Notes under the pieces: generated by a model
What the model was told of the DNA's origin: nothing
The model's input: the letters and a program-made list of their open reading frames with translations, nothing else
The model's database searches: none
Source of the DNA: an uncultured Actinomycetes bacterium
Lineage (GTDB): Bacteria > Actinomycetota > Acidimicrobiia > Acidimicrobiales > Microtrichaceae
DNA length: 41,396 nucleotides
Direction: 5' to 3'
NCBI GenBank assembly: GCA_903873135.1
Contig: CAIQNH010000015.1
Location: 1-41,396 of the forward strand
Position numbers and translations under genes: made by a program
In this document: piece by piece, positions 5,481 through 35,748 of the stretch
Layout of the letters: every line of letters begins with the position of its first letter
Position numbering within the stretch: the first letter of the stretch is position 1

Positions 5481-8447
5481 TCAGCCGGGCGGCACCGGCG
5501 TGGACCCACCGGCGACGAGCTGCTCGTTCGCCCGGCGCACCAGGTCCCGGGCCTCGTCGACCGCCTGCTCGTAGCCGGCGAGGTCACCGCCACGCAGCCG
5601 GTCCTCGGCCTGGGTGAACTTCTGGTCGGCCTCGGCGAGCAGCTCGGTCGGGGACCCGGAGAGCGGCGGGGGCGCGGATCCGTCGGGGACGGTGGTCGGC
5701 GTCGACGGGGCGGGTGCGGCACCACTGGAGCCGTCCGGGTCGTCGTCGAGGAGGTCCGCGACCGCCTGCTCGACGGTGTCACCGAATCCCACCTGGTCGC
5801 CCGAGGTGACCACGATCCGGGTGAGGGCGTACCGACCGCTCTGCTCCTCCTTGGCGTAGACCGGACGCAGGTACATCAGCGAGTCCCCGAACGGGAGGGT
5901 GAGCAGGTTGCCGAACTGCACCCGGGAACCCGACCGACCGACCAGGGACTGGTACTCCGACACCGGCTGGTAGGTGACCATCTTCTGGTTGGCACGGAGC
6001 GGACCGTCCACCCGGTTGTTCGGCTCGACCTCGCCGTCGGCCCGACGCTGGCTCATGACCACCTGGGTGAGCTGCCCGTAGTCCGCCGGATCGTTGGCGG
6101 CGATCATCACCGCCGTGAGGTTCCGGGCGCTGTCGTCGCTCGAGGCCAGCACGAACGGACGGGTGAGGACGAACTGCGGGTCCTGGTCCGGCTGCAGCTG
6201 CATCAGCTGGTAGTAGGGCTCGATCCGGTCCAGCTGGCTGGTCGGCTGGGTCGGGTCGAGCTCCTCGATGGTCGTCCCACCCGAGGTGTTGGGCGGCTGC
6301 TGGGCGATGTCCCAACGGTCGGAGTTGTTGAAGAACGTCGACGGGTCGCCCTGGTGGTACCGGCCCCACACCTGGGTCTGCGTCTTGAACAGCAGCTCGG
6401 GGTAGCGGAAGTGCGCCCGCAGCGACTCGGGGATGTCGGTGGCGAACATCCCGGGGAAGGCCCTGGCGTAGGCCCGGATCACGGGGTCCTCGGCGCCGTA
6501 GAGGGTGTCGCTCAGGTACAGGGTCACGTCGCCGTCGTAGGCGTCGACCACGGCCTTGACGCTGTTGCGCAGGTAGTTGAACGTGCCGCGCTGGGTCTCG
6601 GTGACCGCAGCGGCGTCGAGCGCCTCCGCGTACGGGTAGGCCGAGGACGCCGTGTAGCCGTCGATCACGTACTTCACCCGACCGTCGATGAACACCGGGT
6701 ACGGGTCCTCGTCGAGGGTCAGGAAGGGTGCGATCGTCCGCACCCGCTCCCGGATGTCACGGATGAAGATCACCTTCGACTCCGGGGTGAGGCTCCCGGA
6801 GATCAGGGGCTCGATCTCGCCGAAGCGCAGGGCGAACGCCGCCCGCCGCGGCACGCTCCCCACGCCCACCCCGGAGCGACCGGAGTACTTCGTCGTCAGC
6901 TGGTCCGACGTGAGCTCGGTCTGCTCGGTGCCGACGATGGCGTAGCCCTCCATGTCCTCCCCGTGGTAGAGCTCCGGCCGCTCGAGGGGTGGCACGCCGT
7001 CGTAGGTGGCCGGGATGCCCGAGACCAGGAACTCCGGCTCGCCGCGGCCGTTGGCCGTGTTCGACGGAGCGAGCGCGCCCGCGTAGCCGTGGGTGAAGAC
7101 CAGGTGCAGCTTCTCCCAGGAGGGCGACGAGATGCCCTGGGTGTTGAGCTCCCTGGTCGAGATGATGACGGGCTCCCGCACCGGCGGCTCCTCGCCCCGT
7201 TGGACCACGTAGCGGTCCACGTCCACGTCGCGGAACGAGTAGAACTCACGCCCGAACTCGAGGTCCTGGATGGTCGGACGCATGACGCTCGGGTCCAGCA
7301 CCCGGGCGTTGTCCAGGTTGACCTGCTGGCTCGCCACCTTCTCGGCGGTCAGGTCGGGCGAGTACACGAAGTCGACCTGGTCGACCTCGGCCAGTCCGAT
7401 GGCCTCCCGCGTGGCCTCGATGTTGCGTTCGATGTACGGACGCTCCTTGGCCAGCTCCGCGGGGCCCACCTGGAAGCGCTGCACGAACGAGGGGTACAGG
7501 CTCCCGGCGACGATCGACAGGAGCAGCCAGAGCGCCACGACGATCCCCGGGAGCACCCACCCCCGCCGCCAGATGTTGACGATCAGGACGATCGCCACGG
7601 CGATCGACACGAGCATCAGCATCTGGATGGCCGGCAACCGGGCGGTCAGGTCGGTGTAGCCGGCGCCGTCGAAGGACTGCCCCTGGACGGTGAGCAGTTC
7701 GAAGCGCTGGAGGTAGTAGTCGAGCGCCTTCACCAGGGCCGCCACCGCCAGGATGATCGAGAGGTGCGCCTTGGCGTTCGGCGTCACCCGCTCCCCCATG
7801 GCCTGCACCCGGATCGCACCGTTCAGGTAGTGGACGACGGCGACCACGATCGCCGTGACCAGCAGGAAGCCGAAGAGCCAGTCCACCACCTGGGTCAGGA
7901 ACGGCAGCTTGAACAGGTAGAAGCCCAGGTCGACCCCGAACTCCGGGTCGGGCTGGCCGACCGACCCGCCGAACCGGAACAGGAGCCACTGGGACCACTG
8001 GGCCGAGGCGCTGATCCCCGGGATGATCGCCACGAGCAGGGCCACCACGACCTCGACCAGTCGCTGCCGCCCGGAGACCAGCTCCCGGTAGCGGATCAGC
8101 ACCTCGTCGTCCTGGCCGGAGACCGGGAGGAACCGGGGAGCCAGTCGGTCGGCGACGACGAGGTTCAACCAGAGGATCGCGAAGAACACGATGGTCGCCC
8201 CGGCTCCCAGGGTGACCTTGGCCGAGAGCAGCTTCCGCCACACCGAGCCCAGGCCCAGCGAGTCGAACCACAGGATGTCGGTCCAGAAGGTGGCGATGGC
8301 CCGCAGCGACAGCGCCAGGACGACCAGTCCGACCAGGACGACGGCCAGGACGATCCGTCCTCGGTTCGGACGGTCCGTCCGGTCCTTGCGACCCGACCGA
8401 CCGGTCGCGCGGGGCGGGCGGTCGGGCTCGTCGCTCGGGTAGCGCAC
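5481..8447 (-). CDS. UPF0182 family large membrane protein
   Basis: About 988 residues from the chosen GTG at 8447. The order is a short basic cytoplasmic head, about seven transmembrane helices in the first third, then a large extracytoplasmic region of about 550 residues, and a Pro/Thr/Ser-rich and acidic tail ending in a short helical segment. Conserved UPF0182 stretches are visible (FWTDILWFDSLGLGSVWRK; GRSGVGVGSVPRRAAFALRF; YQLMQLQPDQDPQFVLTRPF). The family is widespread in actinobacteria and cyanobacteria and its function is not established. The frame is open further upstream to 8519, but that extension overlaps the preceding gene. The GTG used here lies 11 nt after that gene's stop, consistent with an operon with the DivIVA-like protein. 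Confidence 0.93.
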   Translation of the reverse strand: MRYPSDEPDRPPRATGRSGRKDRTDRPNRGRIVLAVVLVGLVVLALSLRAIATFWTDILWFDSLGLGSVWRKLLSAKVTLGAGATIVFFAILWLNLVVADRLAPRFLPVSGQDDEVLIRYRELVSGRQRLVEVVVALLVAIIPGISASAQWSQWLLFRFGGSVGQPDPEFGVDLGFYLFKLPFLTQVVDWLFGFLLVTAIVVAVVHYLNGAIRVQAMGERVTPNAKAHLSIILAVAALVKALDYYLQRFELLTVQGQSFDGAGYTDLTARLPAIQMLMLVSIAVAIVLIVNIWRRGWVLPGIVVALWLLLSIVAGSLYPSFVQRFQVGPAELAKERPYIERNIEATREAIGLAEVDQVDFVYSPDLTAEKVASQQVNLDNARVLDPSVMRPTIQDLEFGREFYSFRDVDVDRYVVQRGEEPPVREPVIISTRELNTQGISSPSWEKLHLVFTHGYAGALAPSNTANGRGEPEFLVSGIPATYDGVPPLERPELYHGEDMEGYAIVGTEQTELTSDQLTTKYSGRSGVGVGSVPRRAAFALRFGEIEPLISGSLTPESKVIFIRDIRERVRTIAPFLTLDEDPYPVFIDGRVKYVIDGYTASSAYPYAEALDAAAVTETQRGTFNYLRNSVKAVVDAYDGDVTLYLSDTLYGAEDPVIRAYARAFPGMFATDIPESLRAHFRYPELLFKTQTQVWGRYHQGDPSTFFNNSDRWDIAQQPPNTSGGTTIEELDPTQPTSQLDRIEPYYQLMQLQPDQDPQFVLTRPFVLASSDDSARNLTAVMIAANDPADYGQLTQVVMSQRRADGEVEPNNRVDGPLRANQKMVTYQPVSEYQSLVGRSGSRVQFGNLLTLPFGDSLMYLRPVYAKEEQSGRYALTRIVVTSGDQVGFGDTVEQAVADLLDDDPDGSSGAAPAPSTPTTVPDGSAPPPLSGSPTELLAEADQKFTQAEDRLRGGDLAGYEQAVDEARDLVRRANEQLVAGGSTPVPPG

Positions 8448-8457
8448 GGCGCTGAGG

Positions 8458-10617
8458 TTACCGAGGGTTCGGCACGAGGATGCATCGGCACCCGGCGTGC
8501 GCCGGGGGCAGCGTGTCACCCGTGGGGAACGGATCGCCCACGATCACCGGTCCGGCGAGCGCGTTGTCCTCGGCGTCGGAGCACGGCAACCCGCCGTGGT
8601 CGACGAGCCAGCACCAGCTCGTCCCCGGTGCCGCCGAGGCGGCCAGGCCCACGGCGAACCCGGCGGCCGCCAGGTCACCCGCGGCGCCCTCGGTCTGGCC
8701 CGAGCGCCACTCCCGGTAGGCACCTCGGACCTTGCTCTGGACCCCGGCCAGGTCGAGTCCGTCGGCGTCGGCCTCCTCGAGCACCCGGGCCAGGTGGGCC
8801 CGACGGCGACCGAGCAGCTCGGCCACGAGCGCGTGCAGTCGGCCCTCGGGGCGCACCTCGGCGTCGAGGGCCTCGGCGGGGTCGGCCGTCGGGTCGGCTC
8901 CCGACTCGCCCGACCAGAACGTGGCTCCGGCGCGAGCGGCCGAGCGCAGGTCCGGGAGCAGGTGCTCCAGGTAGCGGTCCACGTCGTCGTCCTCCCCGAG
9001 CAACGAGTCCAACGAGGGGACCGTGCGCCGGGCCCGACGGAGCTGGTCGAGCACCTCGTTCTGCTCGTCGGACACGGCCCGCTTGAGCGACCGGGCGAGC
9101 GACTCGCCGATCGGCTCGAGGAGCGCGTCGCGACGGTCGAGCGGACCACCGTTGCCCTCGGCGTCGTCGTCACCGGCGTCGTCGTCACCGGCGTCGTCGT
9201 CGACGGGAGCGACCTCGGACTCGGAGCCCTCGGCGTCGTCGCCGTCGTCGTCCTCCGTCGTGGCAGCCCGGACGCGCTCGAACAGGTCGTGGACGGTGGC
9301 ACCGTCCTCCGACTCCCCGTCGGACTCCGGAGCGGTCGGCAGCTCGACCACCTCGGCCACTGCGTCGTCGGCCGGACCGGCGACCCCGTCACCGACCTCG
9401 GGGGCGTCGTCGTCGGAGGCGTCCCCGGTGTCGGCGTCCGCACCGCCGACGTGACCGAGGATGCGCTCGTCGAGCACCACCTCCTCGCGGGTCATCTCCG
9501 TCTCGACGACCACCTCGAGCGTCGCCGCCCCGGGCTCGGCGCCGGGCTCGGCGTCGTCGGCCGCCGCCCCGGCTCCACCGGGTTCCCCGGGAGAGGTCCC
9601 GGCCGCGTCGCCCTCCGGCTCGTCGGCGTCGTCCCCGCCGGGTGCGATCGCCGGAACACCCAGCTCGGGCACCGGTCGCAGCTCCGCCGCTGCTCGCGCC
9701 ACGTAGTCGTCCACGTCGACGGTCACGTCGGCCTCGAACTCGTCGTCGCCGCCGGCCAGGTCGTCGACCGTCACGTCGAGCGTGCTGCCGACCTCTCGGA
9801 TGGCGGTCACGATCCGGTCGCGCTCGGCCCGGGCGACCTCGATGCGACGCAGCGCCTCCTGGTGCCGCCCGGCCAGGCTGCGCAGCACCTGCTCGCGGTA
9901 CTCCTGGGCCTCGGCGACCATCGCCCGGCCCTCCTCGACCGCTCGTTCCACCTCGGCCGCGGCGGTCTCGCGCGCCTCCGCCCGGATGCGCTCGGCCTCG
10001 GCGAACGCCGCGTCGCGCTCCAGTTCGGCCGTCTCGCGGATGGCCGACGCAGCCGCGTCCGCCTCGGTGGTGCGTTCGCCCAGGATCCGCTCCGCCTCGT
10101 CGAGGAGCTCACCCCGCCGTGACACCGCTGCGGCCCGGGTCGACTCGGAGAACTCGTCGGCCTCACGCCGCAGGTCGGCCGCCGCCAGCGTGGCCTCGGT
10201 GCGGAGACGCTCCGCCTCCGCCCGCGCCGACTCGAGTTCCTCCGTCGCCGCCCGACGCGACTCGTCGGCCGCGGCGTCGGCCTCCTCCACCACCTGGGCG
10301 GCGGAACGCGTCGCCTCGTCGCGGATCGACGCTGCGGCCTCACGCGCCACCGCGATGATGCGGGCCGTCTCCTCGCCGAGCGCAGCGGTGATCCGGGCCT
10401 CGTCGATCTCGAGCGCGTCGTCGAGCTCGGCGGACAACGAGGTCACCCGTTCCCACAGCCGGCGATCCCGCTCCTGCCAGGAGCGGAGCGCGTCGGCGGC
10501 CCGGCCCAGGAGGGTGGTGACCTCCACCGGGTCGTAGCCCCGCTTGGTCCTGGAGAAGTCGGCGGAGGTGAGCTGCTCAGGACCCAGATCGGGAGGGTCC
10601 GGGATCGGGTCGACCAT
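8458..10617 (-). CDS. DivIVA-domain coiled-coil protein with a phage Mu F-like carboxyl domain
   Basis: A 719-residue chimera. Residues about 18-45 (DFSRTKRGYDPVEVTTLLG) match the DivIVA amino-terminal domain, which recognises curved membrane in cell-pole and division proteins. Residues about 45-285 are a long Ala/Glu/Arg coiled coil. Residues about 290-520 are acidic and disordered, with a DDDAG repeat. Residues about 600-719 resemble the end of SPP1 gp7/Mu F-type head-morphogenesis proteins: a helical stretch, then W668-C669 and D673, C679, and finally P-P-A-H-A-G-C-R-C at 704-712. That last motif is the hallmark PPxHxxCRC of the family. The usual CxxC before it is reduced to one Cys. The start codon ATG lies 6 nt behind TAGCAT. 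It is followed 11 nt later by UPF0182 and preceded by an S16 protease. It is probably a polar or septal scaffold; the role of the phage-like domain is unknown. Confidence 0.9.
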   Translation of the reverse strand: MVDPIPDPPDLGPEQLTSADFSRTKRGYDPVEVTTLLGRAADALRSWQERDRRLWERVTSLSAELDDALEIDEARITAALGEETARIIAVAREAAASIRDEATRSAAQVVEEADAAADESRRAATEELESARAEAERLRTEATLAAADLRREADEFSESTRAAAVSRRGELLDEAERILGERTTEADAAASAIRETAELERDAAFAEAERIRAEARETAAAEVERAVEEGRAMVAEAQEYREQVLRSLAGRHQEALRRIEVARAERDRIVTAIREVGSTLDVTVDDLAGGDDEFEADVTVDVDDYVARAAAELRPVPELGVPAIAPGGDDADEPEGDAAGTSPGEPGGAGAAADDAEPGAEPGAATLEVVVETEMTREEVVLDERILGHVGGADADTGDASDDDAPEVGDGVAGPADDAVAEVVELPTAPESDGESEDGATVHDLFERVRAATTEDDDGDDAEGSESEVAPVDDDAGDDDAGDDDAEGNGGPLDRRDALLEPIGESLARSLKRAVSDEQNEVLDQLRRARRTVPSLDSLLGEDDDVDRYLEHLLPDLRSAARAGATFWSGESGADPTADPAEALDAEVRPEGRLHALVAELLGRRRAHLARVLEEADADGLDLAGVQSKVRGAYREWRSGQTEGAAGDLAAAGFAVGLAASAAPGTSWCWLVDHGGLPCSDAEDNALAGPVIVGDPFPTGDTLPPAHAGCRCILVPNPR
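9163..9207. repeat. 15-bp tandem repeat (three units) coding DDDAG
   Basis: Units start at 9163, 9178 and 9193; the first two are identical (GTCGTCGTCACCGGC on the plus strand) and the third diverges in its last five bases. On the coding strand they encode an Asp-rich repeat in the acidic linker of the DivIVA-like protein. Such a tract is likely to vary in length between strains. Confidence 0.75.
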
Positions 10618-10665: not shown

Positions 10666-11811
10666 TCACGCGTCCGGCGGTCGGACCCCTCCCGGGTGCA
10701 GGAACTCGACGGCCTCGTCCAGGGTCCGCACGGGGACCAGCTGCACGTCACCGGCCATCGCCTCGATCTCGGCCCGTTCCTCGGCCGGTGTCGCCGCCGG
10801 GTAGATGAAGACCTCCACCCCGGCCCGTTGGACCGCGGCCAGCTTCTGCGTGATCCCTCCGATCGCACCCACGGAGCCGTCGGTGAGGATCTCCCCGGTC
10901 ACGGCCACGTCGCGCCCCTCGGTCAGCGACGGTTCGACCATCCGGTCGATCACGGCCAGCGCCCAGGCCAGCCCGGCCGACGGACCGGTCACCTCACCCG
11001 AGTCGATCGAGACCTGCACCGGCGAGTCGATCCGGGGGTCGGCCACGTCGACGTTGACCCCGAGCACGGGACGCGAGGGGTCGTCCGGTGCTGCGCCGAG
11101 CACCACGGTCACGCTCCGACGCTCACCCGTCGGCGTCGTCAGGTCGACGGACACCGGGTCGCCCGGTCGACGGCCGGCCAGGGCCCCGGCGATGTCGTCG
11201 GGCAGGCGCACCTCGACCTGGTCGACCGCGGTGATCACGTCGCCGACACCGACGAGCCCCGCCGAGGGCGACGGGTCCGGGAGTCCGAGGACCCGGGCAC
11301 CCGATCCGGTCAGCGCCGCGGGGTAGCCCAGGTACTCGAGCGCGAGCTTGGTGGCCACCAGCTTGGACAGGTCCATCCGCTGCTGGTTGGCCTGCTTGCT
11401 CCCGTCCCGACCCTCGCGCCCGTAGACCTCCTCCTCGGTCCGCACCTCGATCGCGTCGTCGATCGCGCCGCGCAGCAGCAGGCCGAGCGTCGCCTGGTCG
11501 ATGTACACCGTGGTGAACATCACCTCACCCGGGTGCTCGAAGGTCGGTGCGCCGGAGATCTGGACCTTCGGCTCGGCGGGTCGCAACGAGCCGGGCTGGA
11601 GCAGGAAGTACGGGAGCGGGATCAGCAGGACGCCGGCGAGGAGCGCACCGACGACCACCAGCGACCCCACCCACCACCACAGGCGTCTCCGACGCCGGGG
11701 TCCGGGGGTCGGCGTGGCCTCGGCAGCGACGTCGTCGACGGTGTCGCCGACCGTCTCGTCCTCGGAGTCTCCCGGAGCGGGCGAGTCGTTCGTTACGCTG
11801 GGACCCGTCAT
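10666..11811 (-). CDS. Membrane-anchored PDZ and S16 (Lon-type) serine protease, YlbL family
   Basis: A 381-residue protein. Residues 1-43 are acidic then basic and cytoplasmic. One transmembrane helix spans about 45-65. A PDZ domain covers about 165-240 and an S16 Lon-type proteolytic domain covers about 265-375. The Ser-Lys dyad is visible: S278 in TGPSAGLAWAL and K323 in GGITQKLAAV. There is no ATPase domain, so it acts without ATP on extracytoplasmic or membrane substrates, as known for YlbL-type proteins. The ATG at 11811 overlaps the ATG of a divergent small gene in the palindrome CATG. The promoter would then have to lie inside that neighbour, so a downstream start is possible. The DivIVA-like gene follows 48 nt later. 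Confidence 0.9.
   Translation of the reverse strand: MTGPSVTNDSPAPGDSEDETVGDTVDDVAAEATPTPGPRRRRRLWWWVGSLVVVGALLAGVLLIPLPYFLLQPGSLRPAEPKVQISGAPTFEHPGEVMFTTVYIDQATLGLLLRGAIDDAIEVRTEEEVYGREGRDGSKQANQQRMDLSKLVATKLALEYLGYPAALTGSGARVLGLPDPSPSAGLVGVGDVITAVDQVEVRLPDDIAGALAGRRPGDPVSVDLTTPTGERRSVTVVLGAAPDDPSRPVLGVNVDVADPRIDSPVQVSIDSGEVTGPSAGLAWALAVIDRMVEPSLTEGRDVAVTGEILTDGSVGAIGGITQKLAAVQRAGVEVFIYPAATPAEERAEIEAMAGDVQLVPVRTLDEAVEFLHPGGVRPPDA
11794..11799 (+). promoter_or_regulatory. -10 element TACGCT before the small membrane protein
   Basis: TACGCT on the plus strand lies 10 nt before the ATG at 11810, giving a leader of only a few bases. The element lies inside the amino-terminal codons of the divergent S16 protease gene. 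Confidence 0.35.
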
Positions 11812-12148: not shown

Positions 12149-12682
12149 TCAGCGACCGAAGAGACCGCGACGAGCCGGCTTCTCCTCGGTTGCCGGCTGC
12201 TCGGGTGCCGGCGCGGGGGCCGGAGCAGGAGCAGGAGCAGGTGCGGGCGAGGTGAACGCCGGCTGGGAGGGAGCCGGCGCGGGGGCAGGTGCCGGAGCGG
12301 GGGCCGGAGCCGGAGCGGGGGCCGGAGCCGGAGCCGGGGCCGGAGCTGGCGCAGGAGCCGCCTGCGCCGGGGCCGGAGCGGGAGCCGGGGCCGGGGCCGG
12401 GGCGGGAGCCGGGGCGGGAGCAGGAGCCGGGGCGGGTGCCGGCGAAGAGGTGGCGGCCGCACCGGGGCGCGCGCTCGACGCTCCCGCGTTCAGGGCCTGC
12501 AGCTCGACCTTGTACACGGTGCGGACCTCGAACTTGATCTCCTCGAGGGCGAACATCCGCGCGTTGTCGATGCCCTGCTCGTTGCGGAGCTTCTCGACGA
12601 ACGAGACGGCCTCCTGCAACGAGTCGAACTGGTTGTATCCCGGGCTCCCGCCGGGGGTCTGAAAGATCACCATGTGCGACAC
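12149..12682 (-). CDS. Protein with small N-terminal domain and long Ala-Pro linker
   Basis: A 177-residue protein. Residues 1-66 form a compact predicted alpha/beta domain (SHMVIFQTPGG, then LQEAVSFVEKLRNEQGI and ARMFALEEIKFEVR). It is followed by about 90 residues of almost pure Ala-Pro, broken by two short interruptions (AQAAP and SQPAFTSP), and then a basic end (EEKPARRGLFGR). Alternating Ala-Pro tracts form stiff extended rods, as in TonB-like and lipoyl-domain linkers. I do not recognise a characterised family; from memory similar amino-terminal domains occur in Acidimicrobiia. The GTG start has GGAGG 5 nt upstream. No signal peptide is seen, so it is probably cytoplasmic, with the two ends held apart. 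Confidence 0.8.
   Translation of the reverse strand: MSHMVIFQTPGGSPGYNQFDSLQEAVSFVEKLRNEQGIDNARMFALEEIKFEVRTVYKVELQALNAGASSARPGAAATSSPAPAPAPAPAPAPAPAPAPAPAPAPAQAAPAPAPAPAPAPAPAPAPAPAPAPAPAPAPSQPAFTSPAPAPAPAPAPAPAPEQPATEEKPARRGLFGR
12195..12455. repeat. Low-complexity GCX-CCX tract coding (Ala-Pro)n
   Basis: The plus strand reads as imperfect repeats of GGAGCC/GGGGCC hexamers. On the minus strand these code for the Ala-Pro rod of the gene at 12149-12682. Synonymous codons vary between units, which argues for selection on the peptide rather than recent slippage. Confidence 0.7.
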
Positions 12683-34203: not shown

Positions 34204-34245
34204 CTCCGGTGCCGGGCCGGGCCCGGCAGCGAGCGTCGGGCGTGG

Positions 34246-34385
34246 CGGCTGCCGGTTCGTCGCTCGGCCGCCTCAGCGGCTGCCGGTTCGTCGCTCGGCC
34301 GCCTCAGCGGCTGCCGGTTCGTCGCTCGGCCGCCTCAGCGGCTGCCGTCACCTCGCTCGGCCGCCTCAGCGGCTGCCGAGTGTCG
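34246..34385. repeat. 31-bp tandem repeat running into the 3' end of htrA
   Basis: Three identical 31-bp units (34246-34276, 34277-34307, 34308-34338) are followed by a variant unit (34339-34369) and a 16-bp part unit (34370-34385). The variant and part units include the htrA stop and last codons, so the array looks like amplification of the gene end. Each unit holds a GCCGC-CTCA-GCGGC hairpin. The array may serve as a multi-hairpin terminator for htrA. It lies in the only sizeable gap between htrA and the small gene at 33885. Confidence 0.85.
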
Positions 34386-35748
34386 CCGTGCCGGTCTGCT
34401 CCTCACCCTGACGCTCCCACGTGATCTCGATGGTGTCGCCGGGCTGCATGGACCGGACCACCTGACCGACGTCGGCGGCGGACCTGATCCGACGCCCGTC
34501 GATCGCCACGATCACGTCGCCCTCCTGGAGGCCCGCCTGCTCGGCACCGCTCCCGGGTGACACCGTCTGGATGAACGCACCCGAGGTGGCGGTCACGCCG
34601 TAGCGCTCGGAGACAGCCGGGTTGATGTCGGTCACGCCGACGGTCTCCACGCCGAGCACCGGTCGGGCCGCAGCGGCCTCACGGCCGGCCGAGAGGTCCT
34701 CGACCAGGCTGCGGATCGAGTCGATCGACAGGGCGAAGCCGATGTTCTGGGCGTCGGCCAGGATGGCCGTGTTGATGCCGACCACCTGACCCGACGCGTT
34801 GATGAGGGGGCCGCCGCTGTTGCCGGGGTTGATGGCGGCGTCGGTCTGGATGAGGTTGTCGAGCGACGAACCGGACGGCGCCTGGATCGACCGACCGGTC
34901 GCCGAGACGATCCCGGTGGTCACGCTCGGCTCGTCGCCCAGGTTGAGGGCGTTGCCGATGGCGACCACCGTGTCGCCGACCTGCAGCTCCTCGGACGAAC
35001 CCAGCTCGGCGGGGGTCACCGGCGAGGTCAGCCCCTCGACCTTCACGACGGCGACGTCGTTCTCGGGAACGGCACCCAGGACCCTGGCCTCGGCCGTGCG
35101 TCCGTCGGCGAAGTCGACCTCGATCGTGGTGGCGCCCTCGATCACGTGGGCGTTGGTCAACACGACGCCGTCCTCGGTCAGCACCACACCCGATCCGGCT
35201 GCGTCGCCCTGGCGGGTGCCGGTGTGGATCGACACGACCGACGGCCCGACCTTGTCGAGCAACGTCTGGATGTCGAGCGGCTCACCGGCGATCGTCGCGT
35301 TCGGCCGGGACGGTGCCGCGACGCTCGACGCGGTCACCGAGGAGGTGCCCCGGTTCCACAGTGCGGCGGTGGTCAGGCCACCGGCCACGATCGCGCCGAC
35401 GAGGCCGCCCACGAGCGCCGCCTTGACGCCACCGCCTCGACGGTCACCACCACTCCGGCGACCGGCCGGGCCGGCCGACGGTCCACCCGCGGCCGGTGGA
35501 CCGGGGGGTGGGGCGACCGGCGGCACGGGCGGCGGGGCCGGCGGTGCCCAGCCGGGCGTCGGCATGGTCTGCGTCACGGGCGGGGCGGCAGGGCTCACCC
35601 AACCGGGCGCCACCGGCGCCGTGGGAGGTGCCGTCGGGGGCGCCGCCACGGGGGCCTGCGGCCGGGGCTGGACCGGCGGAGCCGTGGGGGGGAGCGGTGC
35701 CGGCTGGGCCAGGTACGGATCGGTGGGCTGCGGGTCGGGGTTCTGCAT
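34366..35748 (-). CDS. HtrA/DegP-type PDZ serine protease
   Basis: A 460-residue protein. The cytoplasmic head of about 105 residues is very rich in Pro and Ala. A transmembrane helix lies at about 109-131, a trypsin-like domain at about 160-345, and a PDZ domain at about 365-455 (GAFIQTVSPGSGAEQAGLQE, GDVIVAIDGRRI). The catalytic triad is complete: H201 in LTNAHVI, D231 in ENDVAVV and S311 in NPGNSGGP. It degrades or refolds damaged proteins outside the membrane. Proline-rich heads of this kind are common in actinobacterial HtrA proteins. The ATG lies 7 nt behind CATACT. It contrasts with the degenerate relative at 20383-21306. Confidence 0.96.
   Translation of the reverse strand: MQNPDPQPTDPYLAQPAPLPPTAPPVQPRPQAPVAAPPTAPPTAPVAPGWVSPAAPPVTQTMPTPGWAPPAPPPVPPVAPPPGPPAAGGPSAGPAGRRSGGDRRGGGVKAALVGGLVGAIVAGGLTTAALWNRGTSSVTASSVAAPSRPNATIAGEPLDIQTLLDKVGPSVVSIHTGTRQGDAAGSGVVLTEDGVVLTNAHVIEGATTIEVDFADGRTAEARVLGAVPENDVAVVKVEGLTSPVTPAELGSSEELQVGDTVVAIGNALNLGDEPSVTTGIVSATGRSIQAPSGSSLDNLIQTDAAINPGNSGGPLINASGQVVGINTAILADAQNIGFALSIDSIRSLVEDLSAGREAAAARPVLGVETVGVTDINPAVSERYGVTATSGAFIQTVSPGSGAEQAGLQEGDVIVAIDGRRIRSAADVGQVVRSMQPGDTIEITWERQGEEQTGTATLGSR

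Follow-up and report, generated by a model that had tools for sequence, protein, structure and literature searches.

We analysed a 41,396-nucleotide stretch of DNA (hereafter, the window) and found that one of its minus-strand genes joins an amino-terminal DivIVA domain to a carboxy-terminal MuF domain, the latter related to proteins of phage heads. This DivIVA-MuF gene is a real, conserved domain fusion, and neither chance, an artefact nor a prophage remnant. The first-pass annotation of the window had proposed such a fusion, and the proposal is upheld by profile searches, profile-profile comparison, the predicted fold, synteny and phylogeny. As for the kind of phage protein, that annotation had named a Mu F/SPP1 gp7-like domain; the fusion itself stood, and the nearest phage relatives proved to be portal-MuF proteins (PHROG 2662) rather than the free-standing gp7. 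The features of the locus are as follows:

8458..10617, minus strand: DivIVA-MuF fusion gene, 719 aa, with an ATG start and zero internal stops
10189..10581, minus strand: DivIVA domain, residues 13-143 (PF05103 E 1.7e-8; 38 bits in the genome scan)
9718..10182, minus strand: long presumed coiled coil rich in Ala, Glu and Arg, residues 146-300 (composition; dN/dS 0.18 against the relative L031)
9268..9291, minus strand: linker motif HDLFERVR, residues 443-450, within a fast-evolving acidic linker (sequence-derived pattern)
8461..9144, minus strand: MuF-type domain, residues 492-719 (PHROG 2662, hhalign, AlphaFold model, Foldseek against BFVD)
8482..8613, minus strand: Cys/His cluster C669, C679, H707, C710 and C712, a presumed metal site (conservation in alignments A3 and A1)
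5481..8447, minus strand: UPF0182 membrane protein, the downstream neighbour (PF03699 E 1.2e-230)
10666..11811, minus strand: S16 (Lon-like) protease with PDZ (PF05362 4.2e-12, above cut-off; PDZ_2 5.6e-5, below cut-off)

Translation gave the 719 residues, strand and position reported at first reading, and the Met of a homologue from the same genus (L002, N-terminus MADPIPDPPDLGPEQL) matches the start of the fusion gene. The amino end, earlier called DivIVA, matched PF05103 over residues 13-143 when the whole protein was scanned with Pfam (35 bits, cut-off 28), while the DivI1A motif (TIGR03544) scored 26.6 bits in the genome scan, above its cut-off of 22, and 20.6 bits, slightly below it, in the whole-protein scan. 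The protein closes with WCWLVDHGGLPC...FPTGDTLPPAHAGCRC, and its C-terminal end in the translated window ORF reads WCWLVD..C..........PPAHAGCRC, which contains the W-C, D, C and PPAHAGCRC-type ending described before. The extent of the domain had to be revised, since it had been placed in the last 110 residues and covers approximately 228, about double, in the AlphaFold model (residues 492-719).

The homology of this domain to phage MuF proteins was evident at the level of profiles, even though the family suggested for the check, PF04233, gave no match to the window sequence at E<=5, neither with the whole protein nor with C-terminal pieces (an outcome that the first-pass annotation, taken literally, had counted against its claim), and TIGR01641 was weak on it (E 0.21, far below cut-off). 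PF04233 did match 8/41 relatives at E<=0.01 (best 7.6e-6), and a query with the C-terminal 230 residues matched PHROG 2662, a portal protein family whose profile has 717 positions, with E 7e-13, the alignment covering positions 491-708. When all 719 residues served as the query, PHROG 2662 was not listed, and only two weak head families were. PHROG 2662 also matched 33/41 relatives. When cellular and phage MuF profiles were compared by hhalign (81 cellular and 13 phage sequences), they aligned at 99.5%, E 7e-23, over 206 columns, whereas the controls, which were DivIVA-head, S16/PDZ, HEAT and UPF0182 alignments from the same loci plus 20 column shuffles, reached 1.2% at most. Because the phage set was selected by likeness to the query, it is the PHROG 2662 (33/41) and PF04233 (8/41) matches that provide the independent support.

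The phage sequences came from a scan of viral contigs that gave 15 loci, and the phage alignment (A4) holds 13 proteins; all seven that were scanned match PF04233, six of them at or above cut-off. In one phage, L071, the MuF gene lies after a Phage_portal gene. A tblastn search gave a weak match to a single phage record, Brevundimonas phage Strzyga (E 0.3), and a search of plasmids gave no match. The Strzyga protein is a PHROG 2662 portal (1e-105) with a Phage_portal match and a C-terminal Phage_Mu_F match below cut-off; therefore, the closest phage kin of the fusion are portals ending in MuF.

Structure prediction agreed with the profiles. Residues 480-719 were modelled by AlphaFold with pLDDT 93.9 and pTM 0.90; the first helix of the model starts at residue 492, and confidence in the fold stays high as far as the C-terminus. 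Foldseek against BFVD returned 64 matches at E<=0.001, with query TM up to 0.71 and alignments of about 250 columns, and most of the named entries among the 50 listed were portal proteins, minor capsid proteins or proteins of head morphogenesis. In the PDB, phmmer, a profile search, Foldseek and VIA-align of the MuF end found no MuF or phage relative, and the matches were mostly generic helical bundles with Z <=7.8. This missing PDB match carries little weight, since the model of a genuine phage MuF protein, L071 (pLDDT 69), used as a control, likewise found none.

The architecture is shared by the relatives. With locus models that were built from the DivIVA-MuF loci themselves, a single ORF holds both the DivIVA head and MuF in 121 of 127 loci; four are cut by the contig end and two (L185 and L189) are headless. 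A looser count that ignores where in the profile the match falls gives a DivIVA head in 123/127; we use the strict count because L185 and L189 match in the coil alone, with which Pfam agrees, and these two loci also rule out a DivIVA head in every relative. The independent Pfam model PF05103 scored above cut-off in many of the long ORFs and in 7/9 of the outside-class proteins scanned. A frameshift or assembly join between residues 520 and 600, which had been named as a possible source of error, is excluded by the 121/127 relatives with both parts in a single ORF.

The gene also keeps its place. As stated at first reading, it sits in a housekeeping position between the S16/PDZ protease and UPF0182, with no phage gene nearby: by Pfam, the six neighbouring proteins are S16/PDZ, UPF0182, HEAT, VTT, an H+-pyrophosphatase and one without a family, and phage families number zero. 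UPF0182, whose start is likely a GTG at 8447 as read from the sequence (the ORF of the tool extends to 8519), follows immediately and in the same orientation in 121/121 loci with enough flank, 116 by a distance rule and 5 as overlapping ORFs. The S16/PDZ gene lies directly upstream in 90/115 loci, and outside-class loci account for 12 of the 25 misses. Elsewhere in the window, a 177-aa ORF on the minus strand (12149-12682) has a conserved N-terminus and a long Ala-Pro repeat, with no Pfam family and with homologues in the same region of L032-L035, L058 and L059. At 34245-34378 there is a tandem array made up of 4.3 copies of a 31-bp unit (96% matches), which extends to the 3' end of the minus-strand ORF 34366-35748.

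Relatives were sought in other Acidimicrobiia, the class under study as given by the named relatives, and a profile of 41 rows (A1) matched in 296/395 class genomes, 225/268 good ones and 165/184 genera; more than one match was present in just 11 of the 296. A single-sequence search with the C-terminal 230 residues recovered relatives in 175/296 class genomes. Since 99/395 class genomes (43/268 good ones) had no profile match, the fusion is not universally needed in the class. Among the best 80 of 250 confirmed matches of a contig scan, relatives occurred in Acidimicrobiales, Ilumatobacteraceae and Microthrixaceae, and the named records included Aquihabitans sp. G128 (a complete genome by its title), Acidiferrimicrobium sp. 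IK and Aciditerrimonas ferrireducens MV1. In one genome (G013) the entire S16/PDZ, DivIVA-MuF and UPF0182 locus is present twice (L203 and L204).

A phylum-wide draw gave matches in 55/396 genomes, 18 of them outside the class, and 16 of these 18 were examined. Eleven loci (L186-L188 and L190-L197) encode the DivIVA head and MuF in a single ORF that neighbours UPF0182. Two loci from one outside-class family (L185:8220-9935 and L189:9495-11000) carry the coil and MuF beside UPF0182 without the DivIVA head, L199 is truncated by the contig end and L200 belongs to another family. In L198, likewise beside UPF0182, DivIVA and MuF are split between two frames that overlap, owing to a frameshift or an error of sequencing.

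Loci without the fusion point to its history. Around UPF0182 in 16 regions of other actinobacteria (L208-L223), neither the DivIVA nor the MuF model matched, and in five of them an S16/PDZ gene ends <=140 bases from UPF0182, which suggests that the fusion gene was inserted in an older pair. Within the class, we inspected 16 match-less genomes (14 from the profile search, and G005 and G011 from the single-sequence search); UPF0182 was missing in 4 and present in 12, where it adjoined a DivIVA gene without MuF in 3, an S16/PDZ gene in 8 and another gene in 1. Because UPF0182 and S16/PDZ occur as neighbours without the fusion, neither of them needs it. The three same-slot genes without MuF (L225:4560-5558, L227:4456-5619 and L228:280-1446) encode 333-389 aa, with a Pfam DivIVA score above cut-off in L225 only and below it in L227 and L228. 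Since DivIVA persists in this slot without MuF in these three relatives, MuF behaves as a module added to or dropped from the scaffold. These genes are also natural comparisons for the contribution of MuF.

In the DivIVA part, the composition fits a presumed C-terminal coiled coil of the DivIVA type. The linker that follows contains a DLFARIR-type pattern in 80/127 relatives and in 0/1742 other ORFs from the same loci. The pattern was derived from these very sequences, and the control ORFs run from stop to stop over 300 aa or more and include many that are not genes. A motif resembling this type is also readable in the MuF-less L225, L227 and L228. Lying between the coil and MuF, the motif of the fusion is a possible docking peptide. 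PF05103 matched in 91 class genomes, and 73 of these carry at least two matches, some of them possibly pieces of one gene, so the fusion is rarely an organism's sole DivIVA. A PF05103 genome scan and a query with a relative's canonical DivIVA found no second DivIVA in the window genome; two genomes of its genus carry one, and the idea that the fusion is the organism's sole DivIVA was dropped. One class family of approximately 1-Mb genomes (f29) accounts for 19 of the 20 PF05103-negative class genomes among those listed (of 28), and in two of its genomes that were checked S16/PDZ abuts UPF0182. The DivIVA-MuF protein is best explained as chromosomal and of the core type in Acidimicrobiia, occurring also in some other families of actinobacteria, and usually accompanied by a canonical DivIVA.

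Selection on the gene is uneven along its length. Against L031, from the same genus, dN/dS was 0.06 in DivIVA, 0.18 in the coil, 0.33 in the linker, 0.22 in the MuF helices and 0.11 in the Cys/His end, and against L032 the values were 0.09, 0.20, 0.63, 0.22 and 0.11, respectively; the more distant L033 gave a weaker signal (0.36-0.66). These ratios indicate that the fusion gene is under purifying selection. In the tree of the MuF domain, which is unrooted and has several long-branched rows, 46 cellular and 14 phage rows were split by a single branch (100/100), the pattern expected of one capture.

The C..C plus H..C.C cluster is a motif of the MuF superfamily, also present in A4. In the alignment A3, H707, C710 and C712 were each conserved in 81/81 sequences and C679 in 78/81; in the wider A1, the counts were 36/41 for H707, 41/41 for C710, 41/41 for C712 and 34/41 for C679. 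All four of these fixed ligands are present in 113/127, and exactly four Cys occur in the Cys/His stretch of 104/127. The window protein has Ala at position 682, where the second Cys usually stands, and Cys at 669 instead. This fourth Cys is at 669 in 29 and at 682 in 48 of the 81 sequences of A3 (both 0, neither 4), at 669 in 7 and at 682 in 29 of the 41 in A1 (both 1, neither 4), and at 669 in 31 and at 682 in 89 of the set of 127 (both 1, neither 6). When trees were used to pair the changes, the 4 pairs on the domain tree included 1.6 in which the two positions changed in opposite ways and about 0 in which they changed alike (median p 0.5); for the 8 pairs on the UPF0182 tree the numbers were 3.7 and 0, respectively (median p 0.125). 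With the tree allowed for, too few independent pairs remain for significance, and we rejected the relocation as proof of a metal site; it is a hint of one, and metal binding by the cluster is plausible. In L047, from the family of the window genome, the cluster is degenerate, with the C679 and H707 positions lost and CRC retained.

Other residues separate the two groups. The phage helix motif A.TE has an invariant T and an E conserved in >90% of A4, and the Thr-Glu pair is found in 12/14 phage rows versus 0/46 cellular rows. Its loss, while the Cys/His cluster was kept, argues for a changed function on a retained fold. The cellular rows share an almost invariant helix, KR..DEQN..LD.LR, that looks like an interaction face.

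Several known systems resemble the fusion in part. Phage portal-MuF proteins (PHROG 2662; for example, the portal of Brevundimonas phage vB_BpoS-Strzyga, L239) likewise carry a C-terminal MuF on another N-terminal part, and share with it the pattern W..C..C...FP.G...P..H..C.C; however, the fusion has DivIVA in place of the portal, has lost the T-E pair, has no phage family among its scanned neighbours, and bears the KR..DEQN..LD.LR helix, which none of the four phage sequences in alignment A5 shows. SPP1 gp7 and Mu gpF (PF04233, TIGR01641) have a homologous domain with the same kind of Cys/His ending, but they are stand-alone phage minor head proteins; we did not file the fusion with these because its gene has S16/PDZ and UPF0182 as neighbours, with no portal gene directly upstream, and because it lacks the T-E pair. 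DivIVA, Wag31 and GpsB share the N-terminal DivIVA domain followed by a long coil, whereas the fusion is larger, with an acidic linker and the MuF end, and is separate from the canonical-type DivIVA of its relatives. In the MuF polymorphic toxins, as presented in the retrieved text of PMC5576092 and PMC3482391, MuF is also within a multidomain protein, but is followed by an extension or toxin and accompanied by phage or prophage genes, while in the fusion it is C-terminal and chromosomal; no toxin family was found in the fusion protein. The MuF-less genes of L225, L227 and L228 have the DivIVA-like N-terminus, the same neighbours and a similar linker motif, and end after the linker.

That the gene might be a prophage remnant, a misassembly or a frameshift join, an idea to which the phage likeness alone would lend itself, is extremely improbable given the same architecture in 121/127 loci at the same locus, named isolates included, and zero phage families in the six neighbouring proteins. 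Convergence, with a zinc-ribbon-like end on a helical domain of separate origin, would agree with the failure of PF04233 on the window sequence, with the concentration of the strongest phage likeness in the last 60 residues and with the lack of a matching solved structure. This reading is very unlikely, since the alignment to PHROG 2662 in the full PHROG scan spans 218 profile positions, hhalign spans 206 columns and Foldseek about 250 columns with query TM up to 0.71, and the phage MuF model (pLDDT 69) is equally without a PDB match.

The remaining alternatives concern what the MuF end would do. It might bind DNA, with the fusion anchoring the chromosome to the pole or septum; SPP1 gp7 is called DNA-binding (Stiege et al., 2003, as cited in the retrieved text of PMC5576092 and PMC6316719), actinobacterial DivIVA is linked to ParA/ParB in the literature, as far as the retrieved excerpts go, and the basic residues K512, R513, R527 and R635 are near-invariant. 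Such a nucleoid tether is nonetheless unlikely: the domain is acidic (median net charge -12 over 81 sequences), an argument weakened by the acidity of the phage MuF rows themselves (median -7), and it matched no known DNA-binding fold. A decoy against phages, in which a polar MuF would compete for phage portal or ejection partners and block virion assembly or genome entry, draws on the binding of gp7 to the SPP1 portal and its help in starting infection (excerpts of PMC6316719), and on a mycobacteriophage protein that, according to the title of Ko and Hatfull (2018), inactivates Wag31/DivIVA to prevent superinfection. The fixed locus, mostly single copy and spread over the class, the low dN/dS at the Cys/His end and the loss of the phage T-E pair make this decoy quite improbable. 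It is also possible, if doubtful, that the family had a phage portal-MuF as its ancestor and exchanged the portal for the DivIVA coil; at the pole or septum, the MuF heads would then dock a ring-shaped machine of the cell, perhaps a DNA or protein translocase or UPF0182.

The reading that we prefer, with a little better than even confidence, is a single capture of a phage MuF by a polar or septal DivIVA scaffold, in which it would serve for docking and be stabilised by metal. It is the DivIVA domain that suggests such a scaffold role: as in the DivIVA family, this end would bind to membrane where it curves, at the pole or septum, while the coil would oligomerise. The MuF end, presumably held together by its Cys/His metal site, would hang from the scaffold as a docking module, like MuF on the portal part of phage portal-MuF proteins, and could recruit a cellular client replacing the phage partner. 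In SPP1, gp7 binds strongly to the portal and is carried into the procapsid, according to the retrieved text of PMC6316719. The first candidate clients would be the same-locus products, UPF0182 and the S16/PDZ protease. The latter resembles the class that includes B. subtilis DdcP/YlbL. In the excerpts of PMC11790237, DdcP/YlbL is described as degrading the division inhibitor YneA, which is context and not proof.

In the open-licence PMC literature, we found no description of a DivIVA-MuF fusion, and no paper that paired DivIVA with Acidimicrobiia, one of its genera or a neighbour gene. Candidate papers were set aside: within the text retrieved, PMC10884400 and PMC9430571 have DivIVA solely in a reference title on Wag31, PMC8836040 was matched through the word "muffling", and PMC2324017 has DivIVA and no MuF. 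A head-morphogenesis domain in a bacterial polarity scaffold, kept across most of a class, is thus undescribed as far as these searches show. Domesticated phage tails and capsids are familiar from gene transfer agents, tailocins and type VI secretion. The DivIVA-MuF protein suggests that bacteria took over a component of virus construction for use in their own cellular architecture. Moreover, because the function of the MuF domain is described as unknown even in phage Mu (retrieved text of PMC5576092), the cellular MuF offers a route to the role of this fold outside the virion. In the organisms that carry it, the DivIVA-MuF protein may be a lineage-specific part of Acidimicrobiia cell polarity.
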